This document shows, one piece after another, positions 3,764-14,885 of a DNA stretch of 25,730 bases. The translations under genes were made by a program, and so were the position numbers. Location of the stretch: positions 1-25,730 of IMG/VR virus record IMGVR_UViG_3300034374_011615; one strand, 5' to 3'. Origin of the DNA: a virus. The notes under the pieces are model-generated. The model worked only from the letters and a program-made list of their open reading frames with translations. It searched no databases and had not been told where the DNA came from. Position 1 is the stretch's first letter. Every line of letters begins with the position of its first letter.

Positions 3764-4483
3764 ATGCCTTTACCAACAATTGCGACTCCATCATATGAAC
3801 TTGAGTTGCCATCGACTGGAAAAACAATTAAGTATAGACCATTTCTAGTTAAAGAAGAAAAACTTCTTGTTCTTGCATTAGAATCAGAAAGTAATAAAGA
3901 AATCTCTAATGCAATTAAAGCAGTTCTAAAAAGCTGTATTCAGACAAGAGGTGTTAAAGTAGAGTCTCTGCCAACATTTGATATTGAATTTCTGTTCTTA
4001 AATATTCGTGGTAAATCTGTAGGTGAAGAAATTGAAGTTAATATTATTGCTCCAGATGATGGTGAAACAAGTATTCCTGTAAGAATCCTTATTGATGATA
4101 TTAAAGTAACAAAGGATAAAAATCATAACAATAAGATTAAACTTGACGATAAACTTTTCATGCAAATGAAATATCCTTCTTTGGATGAGTTTATTAAAAA
4201 TAATTTTGATATCAATACTGAAATGGACATTGATAAATCATTTGAATTAATTGCTTCTTGTATTGATAAGATTTATAATGATGAAGAAGTTTGGCCTTCT
4301 TCTGATGTCACCAAGAAAGAACTTGTCGATTTCTTAGGGCAAATGAACAGTAGTCAATTTAAAGAAGTTGAAAAGTTTTTTGTCACAATGCCCAAGTTGT
4401 CTCACGAATTTAAAGTTATAAATCCAAATACAAAAGTAGAAAGTACTGTAGTATTAGAAGGGTTATCAAGTTTTTTCGCGTAG
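3764..4483 (+). CDS. gp26: gp26 baseplate hub protein, probable tail assembly chaperone (G-like)
   Basis: This 239-residue protein (T4 gp26 is 208 aa) opens with the family signature: '.YELELPSTGK.IKYRPFLV' followed by KEEKLLVLALES. Next come 'LPTFDIEFLFLNIRGKSVGE' and an Asp/Lys-rich middle. In T4, gp26 is needed to make the hub but is not prominent in the finished virion, which fits a chaperone role. A good AGGA site precedes the ATG. The last codons are AGT TTT TTC GCG TAG; T TTT TTC is a canonical -1 slippery heptamer, and the -1 frame continues for 62 codons. It comes directly before the tape-measure-like genes, the usual place for tail assembly chaperones. The identity as gp26 is firm; the chaperone role is inferred. 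Confidence 0.85.
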   Translation: MPLPTIATPSYELELPSTGKTIKYRPFLVKEEKLLVLALESESNKEISNAIKAVLKSCIQTRGVKVESLPTFDIEFLFLNIRGKSVGEEIEVNIIAPDDGETSIPVRILIDDIKVTKDKNHNNKIKLDDKLFMQMKYPSLDEFIKNNFDINTEMDIDKSFELIASCIDKIYNDEEVWPSSDVTKKELVDFLGQMNSSQFKEVEKFFVTMPKLSHEFKVINPNTKVESTVVLEGLSSFFA

Positions 4484-4665
4484 CGATGTCCCATATGGAC
4501 CTTGAGAATTATTTTAAAATTAACTTTGCTTTGGTCCAGTATCATAAATACTCATTATGGGAAGTGGAAAATTTGATTCCTTGGGAAAGAGACATCTATA
4601 TCGCATTATTACAGAATCATCTTGAAGAAGAAAAACTAAAACAACAACAGCAACAAAATGGATGA
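3764..4665 (+). CDS. Predicted gp26 frameshift fusion (GT-like tail chaperone, about 300 aa)
   Basis: This is the product expected if ribosomes slip -1 at 4471-4477: 238 residues of gp26, then 62 residues read from 4477 to 4662. The layout matches the lambda gpG/gpG-T type, where a minority fusion links the chaperone to the tape measure during tail assembly. The added segment begins R-V-A-M, contains the aromatic 'WEVENLIPWERDIYIALL' helix region and ends in a charged helix and poly-Gln. The sequence shows the slippery site, the phase and the open frame; that the fusion is actually made is inferred. Confidence 0.5.
4471..4477 (+). promoter_or_regulatory. Candidate -1 ribosomal frameshift site T TTT TTC
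   Basis: In the gp26 frame the codons are AGT|TTT|TTC|GCG|TAG, so the heptamer is correctly phased (X XXY YYZ with X=Y=T, Z=C) and lies two codons before the stop. After a -1 slip the next codons are CGC GTA GCG ATG, and the frame runs to TGA at 4663-4665. Possible weak stimulators are a GTCC/GGAC hairpin at 4488-4500 and an alternative six-base pairing of 4496-4501 with 4533-4538; neither is strong. Confidence 0.62.
4486..4665 (+). CDS. Small tail-chaperone T-like domain (gp51 position), read by frameshift or reinitiation
   Basis: This frame encodes 59 residues if read from the ATG at 4486. It has a compact helical sequence with 'YHKYSLWEVENLIPWERDIY' followed by IALLQNHLEEEKLK and five Gln. 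Motifs of the type W-x(5)-LPW-x-R are common in the T half of tail assembly chaperones. It starts two bases after the gp26 stop (TAGCGATG) with no Shine-Dalgarno nearby, so it is probably reached by -1 frameshifting or by termination-reinitiation. It overlaps the next gene by eight bases. In T4 the gene after 26 is 51 (a hub assembly catalyst), so this frame may be what cyanophage annotations call gp51. It is far shorter than T4 gp51 and I could not verify homology. Confidence 0.65.
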   Translation: MSHMDLENYFKINFALVQYHKYSLWEVENLIPWERDIYIALLQNHLEEEKLKQQQQQNG

Positions 4666-6646
4666 TAAAATTCCAGAAGGACTAGAAGATCTACTAAAAG
4701 ATATCGTCAGTGGTAATGACGAAGAAGAGTCTAGACCCGATCCTTCTGGAATTTTGGGTGTAAAAAAAGGTAAGATTGATATTAATAAAGTACTTAATAA
4801 AAAACCTCCCATAAATCCAGAGAGTTTAAAGGCAGAAACTGACGAAGAAGAAAAAGATAATTTAGAAACTGATAAAGAGTTTAAAACTGATGTTCTTAAG
4901 GGACTTAATCAAGTTTTAGCATCCCTTAATGTTATCAAGAGTATTCTCCAAACTCAAAATAAAAATGATAAAAAAGATGAGAATACAAGAAGAATAGAAT
5001 CTCAAAGAGGTAAACAAAAGTCTAGGGAGAAAGAACTAGAGAAAGATAGAGATGATAGAAATAGAGCTATAAACTTACCTGAAATAAAACCTGTAGGTGG
5101 TTTTTTTGATAATGTAATAGGATACTTTAAAAATATACTCATAGGGAGTGTAGTGGTATCGGCACTGAAGTGGATGCAGGACCCCAGAAATAAAGAATCT
5201 ATTGAAAAGTTTAAAAACTTTATGGTAGATAATGCTCCATTAATTCTTGGAGGAATACTTGCTATTGTTTCTTTACCTATAGCATCAACTTTATTAGGAC
5301 TTACTACTACCATTATTGGTGGGTTAGTTACACTTGGAGGTGCTTTAGCTGGATTAACTGCTTTAATTCCGGGGGTTGGTTGGGTTTTATTGGGTGCTGG
5401 AGCTGTTGCTGGAGGATTTCTTGGATTTAGAAACCTTAAACAATATTTGAGAGGAAAGGATTTTCCTGCTGTTGAGGCTGAGATTAAAAATATTGAGCAA
5501 AAACTTTTTTTAGAAAACGAAGAAATTCAAAAACTAGATAAGGATGATCCAGAAAGGAAAAGAAGAGATGAAGTATATCTAGAGACTCAATCTAAAGTTA
5601 ATAGAATGAAAAAGGAACTTATTCCTAGAATGACAATGACTCAAACTTTGAGAAATAGTGTTAAAGAAACTAAAGAAAAAATAGAAAAAGATGAAAAAAG
5701 ACTCTTAGGTTTGGACGAGGAATCATCGGCCGCCAAAATATATAAAGCAGATTTAAAAAAATCTAGAGAATTGCTAAAAACATATGAAACAAATCTTCCA
5801 ATATCTCAAGCAAAGGAAGATGCATTAATGGAAGAACTTTTCCCTGATGGAGTACCCAAAGGAACTATTGAAAAAATAGAGGAGCTTGTAGAAAACTCTA
5901 AAAAGCTGGCAAAGTCTATGAATAAAAGTTTGGAGAATCTTAAAGCTGGAGCAGCATCTTTAAGTCAAAATTCAGAAACTTCCGGTTCAGAAACTTCCGA
6001 TTCAAGTTCAAGATCTGTTGGTGATTATGAAGTAGTTCCAGCTTCTCATTCAGAAACTGGTAGTGGATTTGGAATTAAATCTAGAGATGGGAATCTTGTT
6101 TTAGATGCTAATGGAAGACCTGTAGTATTTTCTAAAGAAGGAGCAATGGCTTTTGCCCAAATATTACAAGACTCTGGAGGAATGGTAAAGGGCAGTGATA
6201 TTGCTAGTGCTCAAAGAAGTCAAGCAAAAAATACTTTAGAAGGAGGAGCACCTGGTTCAAAGCATCTTACAGGAAACGCTATGGACATTCATGGAGATTC
6301 TCAAATTTGGTTAAAAGCATATGGTGGAAAGTATGATTGGAATCTCGCACCATATGAAGGGTCTCACGGTGGACATTTTGTTTTTGGTGATGGTGGCAGT
6401 TCCGCACCACCTCCACCTACAACTTCTTCTGCTCAAATTTCATCATTTAAACCAACTACTCCAACAATATCTTCCCCAACAGGAAGAAGTGGAATTGGTG
6501 GAATACTTCCTATTCCAACAGGAGGTGGAGGTGGTGGTGGATCTTCATCGGGAGCAAATCAAGCCAAAGTTCCAATTTTCTCATCTGATGATCCAAACAA
6601 CATGTCTATGATGGTCATTAAAGGAATCTATAATGTGGTAGGATAA
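4658..6646 (+). CDS. Tape-measure-like tail protein with C-terminal M15-type peptidase domain
   Basis: This is a 662-residue protein. In order: an acidic, charged N-terminus; a basic coiled-coil segment with RIESQR (112-117) and KSREKELEK; a conserved GYFKNILIG hydrophobic segment (155-163 onward); a long hydrophobic Gly-rich stretch (about 194-260) able to span membranes; coiled coil to about 435; a Ser-rich linker; then a domain with SKHLTGNAMD (S534, H536, D543) and GGHFVF (H573). SxHxxGxAxD plus a later His is the zinc-site pattern of M15 DD/LD-carboxypeptidases and endolysins. A Pro/Ser/Gly linker and a short C-terminal segment close it. Position just after the chaperone pair, coiled coils and hydrophobic region fit a tape measure that also cuts peptide stems at infection. 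It is paralogous to the next gene over its N-terminal part. T4 gp29 is the functional counterpart, but I see no clear sequence match. Confidence 0.7.
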   Translation: MDDKIPEGLEDLLKDIVSGNDEEESRPDPSGILGVKKGKIDINKVLNKKPPINPESLKAETDEEEKDNLETDKEFKTDVLKGLNQVLASLNVIKSILQTQNKNDKKDENTRRIESQRGKQKSREKELEKDRDDRNRAINLPEIKPVGGFFDNVIGYFKNILIGSVVVSALKWMQDPRNKESIEKFKNFMVDNAPLILGGILAIVSLPIASTLLGLTTTIIGGLVTLGGALAGLTALIPGVGWVLLGAGAVAGGFLGFRNLKQYLRGKDFPAVEAEIKNIEQKLFLENEEIQKLDKDDPERKRRDEVYLETQSKVNRMKKELIPRMTMTQTLRNSVKETKEKIEKDEKRLLGLDEESSAAKIYKADLKKSRELLKTYETNLPISQAKEDALMEELFPDGVPKGTIEKIEELVENSKKLAKSMNKSLENLKAGAASLSQNSETSGSETSDSSSRSVGDYEVVPASHSETGSGFGIKSRDGNLVLDANGRPVVFSKEGAMAFAQILQDSGGMVKGSDIASAQRSQAKNTLEGGAPGSKHLTGNAMDIHGDSQIWLKAYGGKYDWNLAPYEGSHGGHFVFGDGGSSAPPPPTTSSAQISSFKPTTPTISSPTGRSGIGGILPIPTGGGGGGGSSSGANQAKVPIFSSDDPNNMSMMVIKGIYNVVG

Positions 6647-6647
6647 T

Positions 6648-8438
6648 ATGTTATCAGCATTATTAGGAGTCGGTTCAAAATTATTTAAAGCAAAAAAACT
6701 TTCTTCTGGCAGAGAGTCGTCTGATGCTGGAAAGAAAATTGCTAAAAATAAGTTTCTTAATATAAAAGATAAGAAGAAGGGTGCTGATCCAATAAAGGAG
6801 GGTATGGTAAAGCCCCCAAGAATATCTGCTGAAAAACTTTTACCTCAAAGTAAAATAAACAATCTTCTAAAAGAAACTAAAACTGACAATAATAAAACTA
6901 AAGGAGGAGATATAAAAGGAATATTTGGAGAGATTTATAATAGTCTTAACGACATTATAAAATATCTTAAAAACGATAATGAAAATAAAAATAAACAAAA
7001 AGAAAGGCAAAGAGTAGAATCTCAAAGAGCAGCAAATAAAGTTAGAGAAAATGAATTAGAAGATAAAACAGATAAGTTTGGTTTCTTAAGAAATATAAGC
7101 CTACCAGATGATCCTCTTAATATTGTTGGATACTTTAGAAGTATTCTTATAGGTGCTCTTGTTTTAGCGGTATTAAAAAACCTTGACAAAATTGTCAATT
7201 TCTTTAGAAATGTCTATAAAGCTTTTGAAGAATTTATTACTCTTCTTGGAGAGTTTTTGAGTCCAGTATGGGATGGACTGAAATGGATTACCAATGAAGG
7301 TGTAAAAATAATTGCTGAAATTATGGGAGTTCCTAAAGAAGATATTGATGCGGATAACTTGTCAAAAAACCTAACCGAAATTGCTAAACTGATTCCGGGA
7401 ATGGAACAGTTGTTTAATAATATAAAATCAGCAGTAGATTCTCTTGATACTAATTCAAGTTCTTCAAGTTCTCCAAGTTCCCCAAGATCTTCATATGCTA
7501 AAGCAGGTGAAATACCATCAGAGGTAACTCAAGACACAGAATTTACTCAAGGAGTAACTAATCTTGCTAAAAAATATAATGTTCCAGAAGACTATCTTTA
7601 TGCAGTAATGGGATTTGAAACAGGAGGAACTTTTGATCCTTCTGTAAAAAACCAAGCAGGTTCTGGAGCTACTGGACTAATTCAATTTATGGATAGCACT
7701 GCTGAAGGATTGGGAACAACAACAGATAAATTAGCAGGAATGTCCAGATCTGAACAGCTAGTATATGTTGACAAATATTTTTCAGGTAAAGGAATTGAAG
7801 GTGGAAGTTTGTCTGATATCTATATGGCAGTTTTGTTTCCAGCAGCAGTTGGAAAACCCGATGACTTTGTTTTATTTGGAAAGGGCGCTATGAGTGGTTA
7901 TACTGGAAAAGCATATGAGCAAAACAAAGGACTCGATAAAAATAATGATGGAAGTATTACTAAAGCAGAAGCATCAGAATCTGTATCTAGATATCTACCA
8001 AAAAATTCTGTCCCTTCAAATATACCAGAATACGATGAGAATAAAACATACAAAGTTGGTGATGTTGTAATGAAAAATGGAAAGAACGTGAAATTTGATG
8101 GATTTGGATGGGCAGAAGTTCAAGGAATAACTTCTCAAAACTTAGGAGGAGGACAAGCACCGGCAGCACCAGTACCAGAACCACCAGCAGCACCAGCACA
8201 GGTTATTTCTTTAGAACCTAAAGCATCATCCAGCGTTTCAGGTATTTCTGAAAGAGCAGAATATGAAATTCCTGCAGGTTCTAGTCAAGTTTTTCTTATG
8301 CCACAACAATCTGGAGGTAATATTATAGTTTCTGGTGGTGGAGAAATGATGCCACCTATCATAGGACCTAAAAAGATTGATATATTAAATAGTTTATATC
8401 AGGCACAGTTAATTGGATTCTTATATAAGCAAGGATAA
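6648..8438 (+). CDS. Tape-measure-like tail protein with lytic transglycosylase (SLT) domain and EF-hand
   Basis: This is a 596-residue protein. The N-terminal part (about 50-180) repeats the plan of the preceding protein: KKG...KPP, a coiled coil, RVESQR (122-127), RENELE, then GYFRSILIGALVLAVLK (161-177). Residues about 300-415 form an SLT-type transglycosylase/lysozyme domain: 'MGFETGGTFDP' with catalytic Glu324, then GSGATGLIQFM (338-348). A textbook EF-hand loop follows at 430-441 (D-K-N-N-D-G-S-I-T-K-A-E). Then come an aromatic 'YKVGDVVMKNGKNVKFDGFG' element, an Ala/Pro linker and a conserved-looking C-terminus (DILNSLYQAQLIGFLY). It probably cleaves glycan strands during DNA entry. It starts one base after the previous stop, and an AGGA site precedes its ATG. 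Confidence 0.75.
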   Translation: MLSALLGVGSKLFKAKKLSSGRESSDAGKKIAKNKFLNIKDKKKGADPIKEGMVKPPRISAEKLLPQSKINNLLKETKTDNNKTKGGDIKGIFGEIYNSLNDIIKYLKNDNENKNKQKERQRVESQRAANKVRENELEDKTDKFGFLRNISLPDDPLNIVGYFRSILIGALVLAVLKNLDKIVNFFRNVYKAFEEFITLLGEFLSPVWDGLKWITNEGVKIIAEIMGVPKEDIDADNLSKNLTEIAKLIPGMEQLFNNIKSAVDSLDTNSSSSSSPSSPRSSYAKAGEIPSEVTQDTEFTQGVTNLAKKYNVPEDYLYAVMGFETGGTFDPSVKNQAGSGATGLIQFMDSTAEGLGTTTDKLAGMSRSEQLVYVDKYFSGKGIEGGSLSDIYMAVLFPAAVGKPDDFVLFGKGAMSGYTGKAYEQNKGLDKNNDGSITKAEASESVSRYLPKNSVPSNIPEYDENKTYKVGDVVMKNGKNVKFDGFGWAEVQGITSQNLGGGQAPAAPVPEPPAAPAQVISLEPKASSSVSGISERAEYEIPAGSSQVFLMPQQSGGNIIVSGGGEMMPPIIGPKKIDILNSLYQAQLIGFLYKQG

Positions 8439-13320: not shown

Positions 13321-14106
13321 ATGAAAGTACCAGATCTATACGTAGGAAAACAATTATTTGTTGGAACTGGAGCACCTACTGCTTTGGGGATTGGTCCTGT
13401 AGCAGCAAGAGGTTCTGCGTATATTGAAGGTCCAACAATTACAGGAGACCCTTCTGTTTTTCCTTTTGCGTTTGGTTGTGCCAACGTAGGTCCCCCAGTA
13501 AATGCAGAAGCTATACCTCCAGTTCCTATCATTCCAGGTTTTGTAGCGGGTTTTAATCACTCTCCATATTCTCTTGCGGTTGTTGGTGATGCTGCTATAT
13601 TCAATGACTTAACAGTAAATGGTCAGATAGAAGTAGGAACAAATCTTATTGCTCAAGGTGAGGTTATTGCTAGAGTTCTTGGTAAACCTCATATACTTTC
13701 AGTCAAAAAAGACTTTGATATTAAGCACCCCACCAAAGAAGGTTGGAGACTTACTCATGCTTGCTTAGAAGGTCCAGAAGCAGGAGTATATTATAGAGGT
13801 AAGACCATAAATAACGATAAGATAATCTTACCAGAATACTGGAAAGGTTTGGTTGATGAGGATACTATTACTGTAAATATAACTCCAGTAAAATATCACC
13901 AAAATATTATGGTAGAAAAAATAGAAGACAATACTGTTTTCTTAAATGAAAAGGATGGTTTGGAAATCAATTGCCACTTCCATGTTTATGGTGAGAGAGT
14001 TGATACTGAAAAATTAATCCCAGAATATGAAGGAGAGATAGAAGACTATCCAGGAGATAATTCTCAAAGGTCTATTGTTGGTTGGAATTATGATGTTAAG
14101 AAATAG
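13321..14106 (+). CDS. Virion/tail-fibre-associated protein with EGPE and LPxxW domains
   Basis: This is a 261-residue protein. The N-terminal half is Gly/Pro/Ala-rich (LFVGTGAPTALGIGPVAARG), followed by a fibre-type strand 'DAAIFNDLTVNGQIEVGTNL'. From about residue 135: 'HPTKEGWRLTHACLEGPEAG' and VYYRGK, then ILPEYWKGLVDEDTITVNIT, then 'INCHFHVYGERVDTEKLIPE' and an acidic tail. The HPTKxGxRLxHxxLEGPE segment followed by the LPxYW domain is, to my knowledge, frequent in structural proteins of marine T4-like phages. It starts one base after the previous stop. A short-fibre or fibre-collar role is possible; none is proven. Confidence 0.72.
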   Translation: MKVPDLYVGKQLFVGTGAPTALGIGPVAARGSAYIEGPTITGDPSVFPFAFGCANVGPPVNAEAIPPVPIIPGFVAGFNHSPYSLAVVGDAAIFNDLTVNGQIEVGTNLIAQGEVIARVLGKPHILSVKKDFDIKHPTKEGWRLTHACLEGPEAGVYYRGKTINNDKIILPEYWKGLVDEDTITVNITPVKYHQNIMVEKIEDNTVFLNEKDGLEINCHFHVYGERVDTEKLIPEYEGEIEDYPGDNSQRSIVGWNYDVKK

Positions 14107-14117
14107 AAGTAAATAAA

Positions 14118-14885
14118 ATGCCTCTTACCCCAGAAATAAAAAAGACAAAACCTAGTAAAAATAGTACTTTCAAACCAAGGTCTGTAGGTAAGACTGATTG
14201 TTCAGATCCTCCTATTAGTGGATTACCTTCTTTTAATTATGATTGGGTTCCTAAGTATGACAATGGAGATTCGGAACCAATTAAGGATTTAGATCTTCCT
14301 CCTTCATGTGTGCCTTGGTATTATTATTACATGAAGGTGGGATCTATATGGGCGTTTGATAATATAATTACAGAAACAAATTTGCTTGCCAGAGGTGAGG
14401 TTGTTGGAAATAATGGAAGACATGTTCTATCAAATAAAAAGAATCTTCCATTTGACATGCCCCACCCCAACAAAAAGGGTTGGAGGTTAAGGCATGTTTG
14501 TATTGAGGGTCCTGAGATTGCTGTATATTGTAGAGGAAAGGTTCCAGAGAATGGAGTAATTAATCTCCCTTCTTATTGGGAAGGACTGGTTAATAAAGAT
14601 GATATGTCAATAAGTCTTACTCCTATTGGACATTGGCAAGAACTTTTTGTAAAAGAAGTTAAGGGCAATCAAGTTATTGTTGGAAACAACGCAGCAAATG
14701 CAATTAAAGCAGACTACTATATTGTAGGAAGAAGATTAGATGATGACCTTATTGTAGAGTATGAGGGCGATTCCTACGAAGATTATCCTGGAGGAAACGA
14801 AGGATATTCTTTCAACTACGATAACGACTATGTTGAAAGTATTATTAAAAAAGAAGTCAACGACATAATGAAGAATAATGTTTAA
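14118..14885 (+). CDS. Virion/tail-fibre-associated protein, paralogue of the preceding one
   Basis: This is a 255-residue protein. Its N-terminus differs from its neighbour (basic and Pro-rich, then 'PSCVPWYYYYMKVGSIWAFD'). From about residue 105 it is clearly paralogous: 'HPNKKGWRLRHVCIEGPEIA', VYCRGK, INLPSYWEGLVNKDDMSISL, then ADYYIVGRRLDDDLIVEYEG and DYPGGNE. The C-terminus is acidic and helical (SIIKKEVNDIMKNNV). The gene overlaps the next by eight bases. It is inferred to be a structural protein made by tandem duplication with divergence of the N-terminus, which may set its position in the virion. Confidence 0.72.
   Translation: MPLTPEIKKTKPSKNSTFKPRSVGKTDCSDPPISGLPSFNYDWVPKYDNGDSEPIKDLDLPPSCVPWYYYYMKVGSIWAFDNIITETNLLARGEVVGNNGRHVLSNKKNLPFDMPHPNKKGWRLRHVCIEGPEIAVYCRGKVPENGVINLPSYWEGLVNKDDMSISLTPIGHWQELFVKEVKGNQVIVGNNAANAIKADYYIVGRRLDDDLIVEYEGDSYEDYPGGNEGYSFNYDNDYVESIIKKEVNDIMKNNV

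Follow-up and report, generated by a model that had tools for sequence, protein, structure and literature searches.

A gp26-like gene in a T4-like phage contig predicted to encode short and long tail assembly chaperones through a -1 frameshift

We found that the gp26-like gene of a marine T4-like phage is very likely a single gene for a tail assembly chaperone that is read in two frames, with a programmed -1 frameshift giving rise to a short form (TAC-N) and a long form (TAC-NC). The frameshifting, its rate and the chaperone function we infer from the frameshift signal, the conservation of that signal and the homology of the proteins. In the mechanism that we propose, translation would mostly end at the TAG at 4481, with gp26, the 239-aa short form (TAC-N), as the product. 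The remaining ribosomes, a minority, would be slowed by pairing of GAAGGG with 16S rRNA behind them and, in most relatives, by an RNA stem-loop ahead, and would slip back one base while Phe-tRNAs occupy T TTT TTC. Continuing in the -1 frame, these ribosomes would add a C-terminal helical domain and yield the long form (TAC-NC, 300 aa). If the system works as lambda gpG/gpGT does, the tape measure protein would be coated by both forms, which would also bring in tail tube subunits.

The DNA analysed (the window) is a 25,730-nt fragment of virus record IMGVR_UViG_3300034374_011615. Its T4-like tail genes include gp53 and a tail tube cap gene on the minus strand, and it further carries a gp4-like head closure gene, a tail tube protein gene, gp26 (3764-4483), two genes for long proteins and hub genes. 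The 3' end of gp26 reads AGT TTT TTC GCG TAG, with GCG as the single codon separating the heptamer (4471-4477) from the stop; direct reading agrees with the coordinates and the phase given in an earlier note on this DNA. From 4471, the -1 frame reads TTT TTT CGC GTA GCG ATG TCC and continues to a stop at 4663-4665. It has 64 codons, and the 62 codons of the earlier note are those past the two Phe codons, open to 4665 (Table 1). The predicted fusion product of 300 residues has the predicted junction peptide S-S-F-F-R-V-A-M. In addition to its phrog_634 match, the -1 domain matches positions 231-281 of phrog_150 (E = 1.5e-6).

Table 1. Positions of the features at the gp26 locus, numbered from the first base of the window
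Feature	Position	Strand	Basis or remark
gp26-like gene, zero frame, short form TAC-N, 239 aa	3764..4483	+	PF12322 T4_baseplate E=5.6e-72; phrog_150 E=2e-78
SD-like element GAAGGG inside gp26, upstream of slippery site	4457..4462	+	AAGG 9 nt from heptamer
Slippery heptamer T TTT TTC	4471..4477	+	direct reading; in phase in 239/243 junctions
Zero-frame stop TAG of short form	4481..4483	+	
-1 frame C-terminal domain of predicted long form (TAC-C)	4471..4665	+	phrog_634 'baseplate hub assembly catalyst' E=1.1e-28
Possible weak hairpin (CGA/TTG plus GTCC-CATAT-GGAC), -5.8 kcal/mol	4484..4504	+	folding; region structured across relatives
662-aa protein, charged/hydrophobic N-terminal region, M15 peptidase domain, candidate tape measure	4658..6646	+	overlaps -1 frame by 8 nt

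It is plausible that the next gene (4658-6646) is tape-measure-like; the family matches of its 662-aa product were to endolysin families and families of unknown function, and to no tape-measure family. The proteins of 4658-6646 and of the adjacent 6648-8438 are 36% identical over 146 aa in an N-terminal region that is charged and hydrophobic-ended, and they differ in their C-terminal wall-degrading domains, M15 peptidase in the former and SLT transglycosylase in the latter; they look like duplicated tape-measure or injection proteins. Elsewhere in the window, the adjacent genes 13321-14106 and 14118-14885 match the same families of unknown function (phrog_17490 and phrog_28536) and are likely a tandem duplication.

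PF12322 was matched by T4 gp26 (208 aa) and by the N-terminal 201 residues of T4 gp51 (249 aa). The last ~48 residues of gp51 match the profile of the -1 domain (E 3e-10 to 9e-7), in an alignment that starts from the slip site's second Phe. The same profile gave no match to T4 gp26. Aligning cyanophage-type gp26 with T4-type gp51 by hhalign gave 96.6% probability (E 4.9e-10). AlphaFold2 models were confident (pLDDT 88-89), T4-type gp51 being among the proteins folded; in the gp51 model the elements are arranged in a similar order, with helices added at the C-terminus, and a Foldseek search with this model retrieves gp26 proteins. Neither by sequence nor by fold did we find a solved structure resembling them. 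The earlier note had cited the usual description of 26 and 51 as separate hub-assembly genes; in T4 they are divergently transcribed paralogues that, judged by their sequences, look like the short form (gp26) and the long form (gp51) encoded as separate genes.

It is unlikely that the frameshift is real and that gp26 and gp51 nevertheless serve baseplate hub assembly rather than tape-measure chaperoning. According to a T4 review (PMC3004832), both proteins are hub assembly chaperones, and gp51 is an essential protein that has no known function and is not retained in the final particle. The PHROGs names also refer to the baseplate hub. However, the short/long architecture fits tail assembly chaperones, as do the location ahead of a long coiled-coil-like gene and the fact that virions lack gp51; TAC genes of T4-like phages were assigned by Vladimirov et al. 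2022, as credited in two later papers (PMC10885494, PMC12846349). The proposal of the earlier note that gp26 and the small frame form a G/GT-type chaperone is supported by this literature together with the homology to T4 gp26 and gp51. If the hub nucleates the tape measure, the two views of function overlap.

Comparing gp26 3' ends across relatives, as the earlier note had proposed, we found both the slippery site and the -1 domain to be kept. T TTT TTC lies one codon before the stop in 82/82 sequences (80 close viral contigs, phage S-SM2 and the window). Among all relatives fetched, 239 of 243 distinct junctions carry an in-phase TTTTTTN heptamer at the same place: TTTTTTC in 199, TTTTTTA in 20, TTTTTTT in 19 and TTTTTTG in 1, the variants ending in A, T or G being themselves slippery forms. 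Behind the heptamer, the -1 frame is open in all 239, for 50-79 codons. The heptamer is retained in the sampled Aeromonas, Stenotrophomonas and Delftia phages at 25-31% protein identity and is also present in Sinorhizobium and Pseudomonas phages, the whole distant set lying at roughly 25-35% protein identity. Such counts, among both the close relatives and all junctions, are more than chance would give; the relatives are not independent, and thinning them to below 85% nucleotide identity (the set of 155 used below) lessens the effect of kinship without removing it.

Two candidate exceptions to the heptamer were rejected: L106 proved to be a long gp51 of T4 type, and the slippery run of L095 is one T shorter than that of L094. 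L095 and L094 are near-identical Stenotrophomonas phages, and the difference of one T, at position ~2250, puts L095 gp26 out of frame; it reflects either an error in sequencing or a genuine indel within the slip site. The remaining exceptions are two Vibrio phages, K397 (L091) and Kuja (L092), one of them a member of the Ackermannviridae. Both have the -1 domain, and their slip site is CTT TTC or CTT TTT, which is a T_TTC/T_TTT tetramer and no heptamer.

The first codon of the slip site is TTT in 239/239 cases, and the base ahead of it is T in 239/239, across six different codons (AGT, TCT, GCT, AAT, GAT and GGT). As a control, we used a Phe-Phe conserved 20-45 codons upstream in the same genes, and found TTC TTT in 146, TTT TTT in 64, TTT TTC in 12 and TTC TTC in 9 (n = 231). 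Hence, the codon choice at the slip site, compared with a nearby Phe-Phe that is mostly TTC TTT, shows selection on the nucleotides.

An SD-like element was found upstream of the slippery site, with GAGG, GGAGG or AAGG ending 9-10 nt before the heptamer in 232/239 relatives. The element falls in a conserved Glu-Gly, so protein constraint could account for its presence. The choice of codons within it is biased: GAG is used at the Glu codon of the element in 100/147 cases (68%), compared with 1146/3716 (31%) at Glu codons elsewhere (p = 1.8e-19). In the cases with GAA, GGG is the next codon in 29/47, compared with 11/100 after GAG (p = 4e-10). These two biases together are the pattern expected if complementarity to the anti-SD sequence is selected.

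Downstream of the slip codons, we found evidence of RNA structure. Across the 155 thinned relatives, folding of the 54 nt that follow the slip codons was more stable than that of synonymous-codon shuffles (mean z -1.51, with 55% below -1.5), compared with 5-17% below z -1.5 in nine control blocks elsewhere and 5% in the block just upstream of the site. In this set, the excess of structure is confined to ~55 nt downstream of the slip site. One subgroup has a conserved 9-bp hairpin that 0/100 codon-permuted controls reach, and the group nearest the window keeps a short palindrome, GGUCC-AUAU-GGACC, with pairing between its arms more frequent than in codon-permuted controls. RNAalifold on the pooled relatives gave no consensus hairpin; a single hairpin common to all relatives was dropped, and the structures vary by lineage. 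The hairpin of the window itself is not above chance (z -0.21, and z 0.1 on synonymous shuffles). Across relatives, both frameshift stimulators (the 5' SD-like element and the 3' structure) are present, and the window has the SD-like element and a weak hairpin.

We consider it very improbable that the small frame is a gene of its own, with translation by termination-reinitiation at TAGCGATG (ATG 4486). This ATG, the sole one close to the junction, is 2 nt past the gp26 stop in the window, and ATG is the first start codon in 95/155 relatives; the small frame is also annotated as an independent gene in, for example, S-SM2 and Syn19. However, 47/155 relatives lack an ATG, in 35/155 the ten codons that follow the heptamer contain none of ATG, GTG and TTG, and a plausible ribosome-binding site precedes the first start in 1/155. 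Hence, with a start codon lacking in so many relatives and a binding site found in one, reinitiation accounts for little. In the window, the purine-rich stretch nearest to ATG 4486 is GAAGGG, 23 nt away and too distant for initiation, in agreement with the earlier note, which had found no Shine-Dalgarno there. The peptide of the -1 frame is conserved back to the heptamer, even where a start codon is absent, and reinitiation leaves the heptamer, the SD-like codon bias and the natural fusion in T4 gp51 without explanation. The pattern that the earlier note had set against frameshifting, a downstream frame that has its own ribosome-binding site in relatives devoid of the slippery site, is not the one seen. 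As to annotation, the small gene of Syn19 and Melnitz-3 starts downstream and omits the conserved start of the -1 domain, and in the Aeromonas phages AsFcp_4 (L087) and CC2 (L089) the -1 frame is present and unannotated, being recorded as a gap after gp26.

That the two frames are joined by slippage of RNA polymerase on the T run, rather than of the ribosome, seems very improbable from the sequence: every heptamer case has six or seven T, TTTTTTT variants exist and the run of L095, one base below that of its near-identical relative, indicates that run length can change, but most runs are just six T followed by C, A or G. A slipping polymerase would need neither the SD-like element, with its ribosomal spacing, nor the 3' RNA structure, and both suit slippage by the ribosome.

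With ribosomal frameshifting as the preferred reading, we compared loci of the frameshift type with those of T4 type. In seven T4-type loci that have a separate gp51, gp26 lacks the heptamer, and several of these code the Phe-Phe as TTC TTT. Frameshifting and gene duplication look like alternative routes to the same short and long proteins. We favour the frameshift type as ancestral to the duplicated type because of its breadth. On balance, it seems probable that the ancestor had a three-part signal (an SD-like element, T TTT TTC and an RNA structure varying by lineage), and that the T4 branch replaced it by duplication, the slippery site being lost once a separate long gene existed. In the window's own 25.7-kb record, itself a fragment, a search for a second gp26/gp51-like gene gave one match only, although a separate long gene may lie elsewhere in the genome, and scans seeded with the Stenotrophomonas and Aeromonas proteins gave few extra viral contigs.

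In T4, gp26 and gp51 are hub assembly genes whose role is unclear, and these results offer one account of the pair. For the marine cyanophage-like relatives, they suggest that the small 'hub catalyst' gene is mis-annotated and belongs joined to gp26. They also supply candidate stimulators, namely the SD-like codon pair and the hairpin, and they place side by side two natural ways of fixing the ratio of short to long protein, frameshifting and gene duplication.

The central claim is already known in kind, as a frameshifted TAC in T4-like phages, and the detail on stimulators is added here. Vladimirov, Gautam and Davidson (2022, Virology 566:9-15) reportedly identified the TAC genes of T4-like phages, and their abstract is said to describe frameshifting as apparently conserved in several T4-like groups. 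Two later papers credit this work with T4-like phages that have a short gene and a long fusion gene (PMC10885494) and with slippery sites of poly-T type in the TAC-N genes of T4-like phages (PMC12846349); the short/long logic, as they describe it, is that of the present locus. Stimulators of the SD-like and RNA-structure kind were not met in the literature searched, and such an absence proves little.

The layout found here also resembles that of E. coli dnaX, which has an SD-like element ~10 nt upstream of its slippery site and a 3' stem-loop. The dnaX site is A AAA AAG, in contrast to T TTT TTC here, and its protein is unrelated. The lambda slippery site, G GGA AAG, likewise differs from the one here. 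Lambda gpG/gpGT and other dsDNA phage tail frameshifts similarly have a short chaperone with a -1 slip near its 3' end (Xu, Hendrix & Duda 2004; PMC5009743), and in lambda-type systems, as here, the long form (here predicted) has an added C-terminal domain and the locus lies beside the tape measure gene (here a candidate); however, lambda gpG/gpGT belongs to a different protein family from the gp26 locus. A 2016 review describes G-T frameshifting as conserved in long-tailed phages 'except T4' (PMC5009743). T4 26/51 has PF12322 in common with the gp26 of the window, gp51 corresponding to the fused long form and gp26 to the short form, and, unlike the window locus, consists of two divergently transcribed genes without a slippery site. 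The TAC locus of Vandenendeviridae/Andersonviridae, also myoviruses, similarly has a conserved -1 TAC frameshift at a T-rich site, with the motif GTTTTT there (PMC12846349) and TTTTTTC here.
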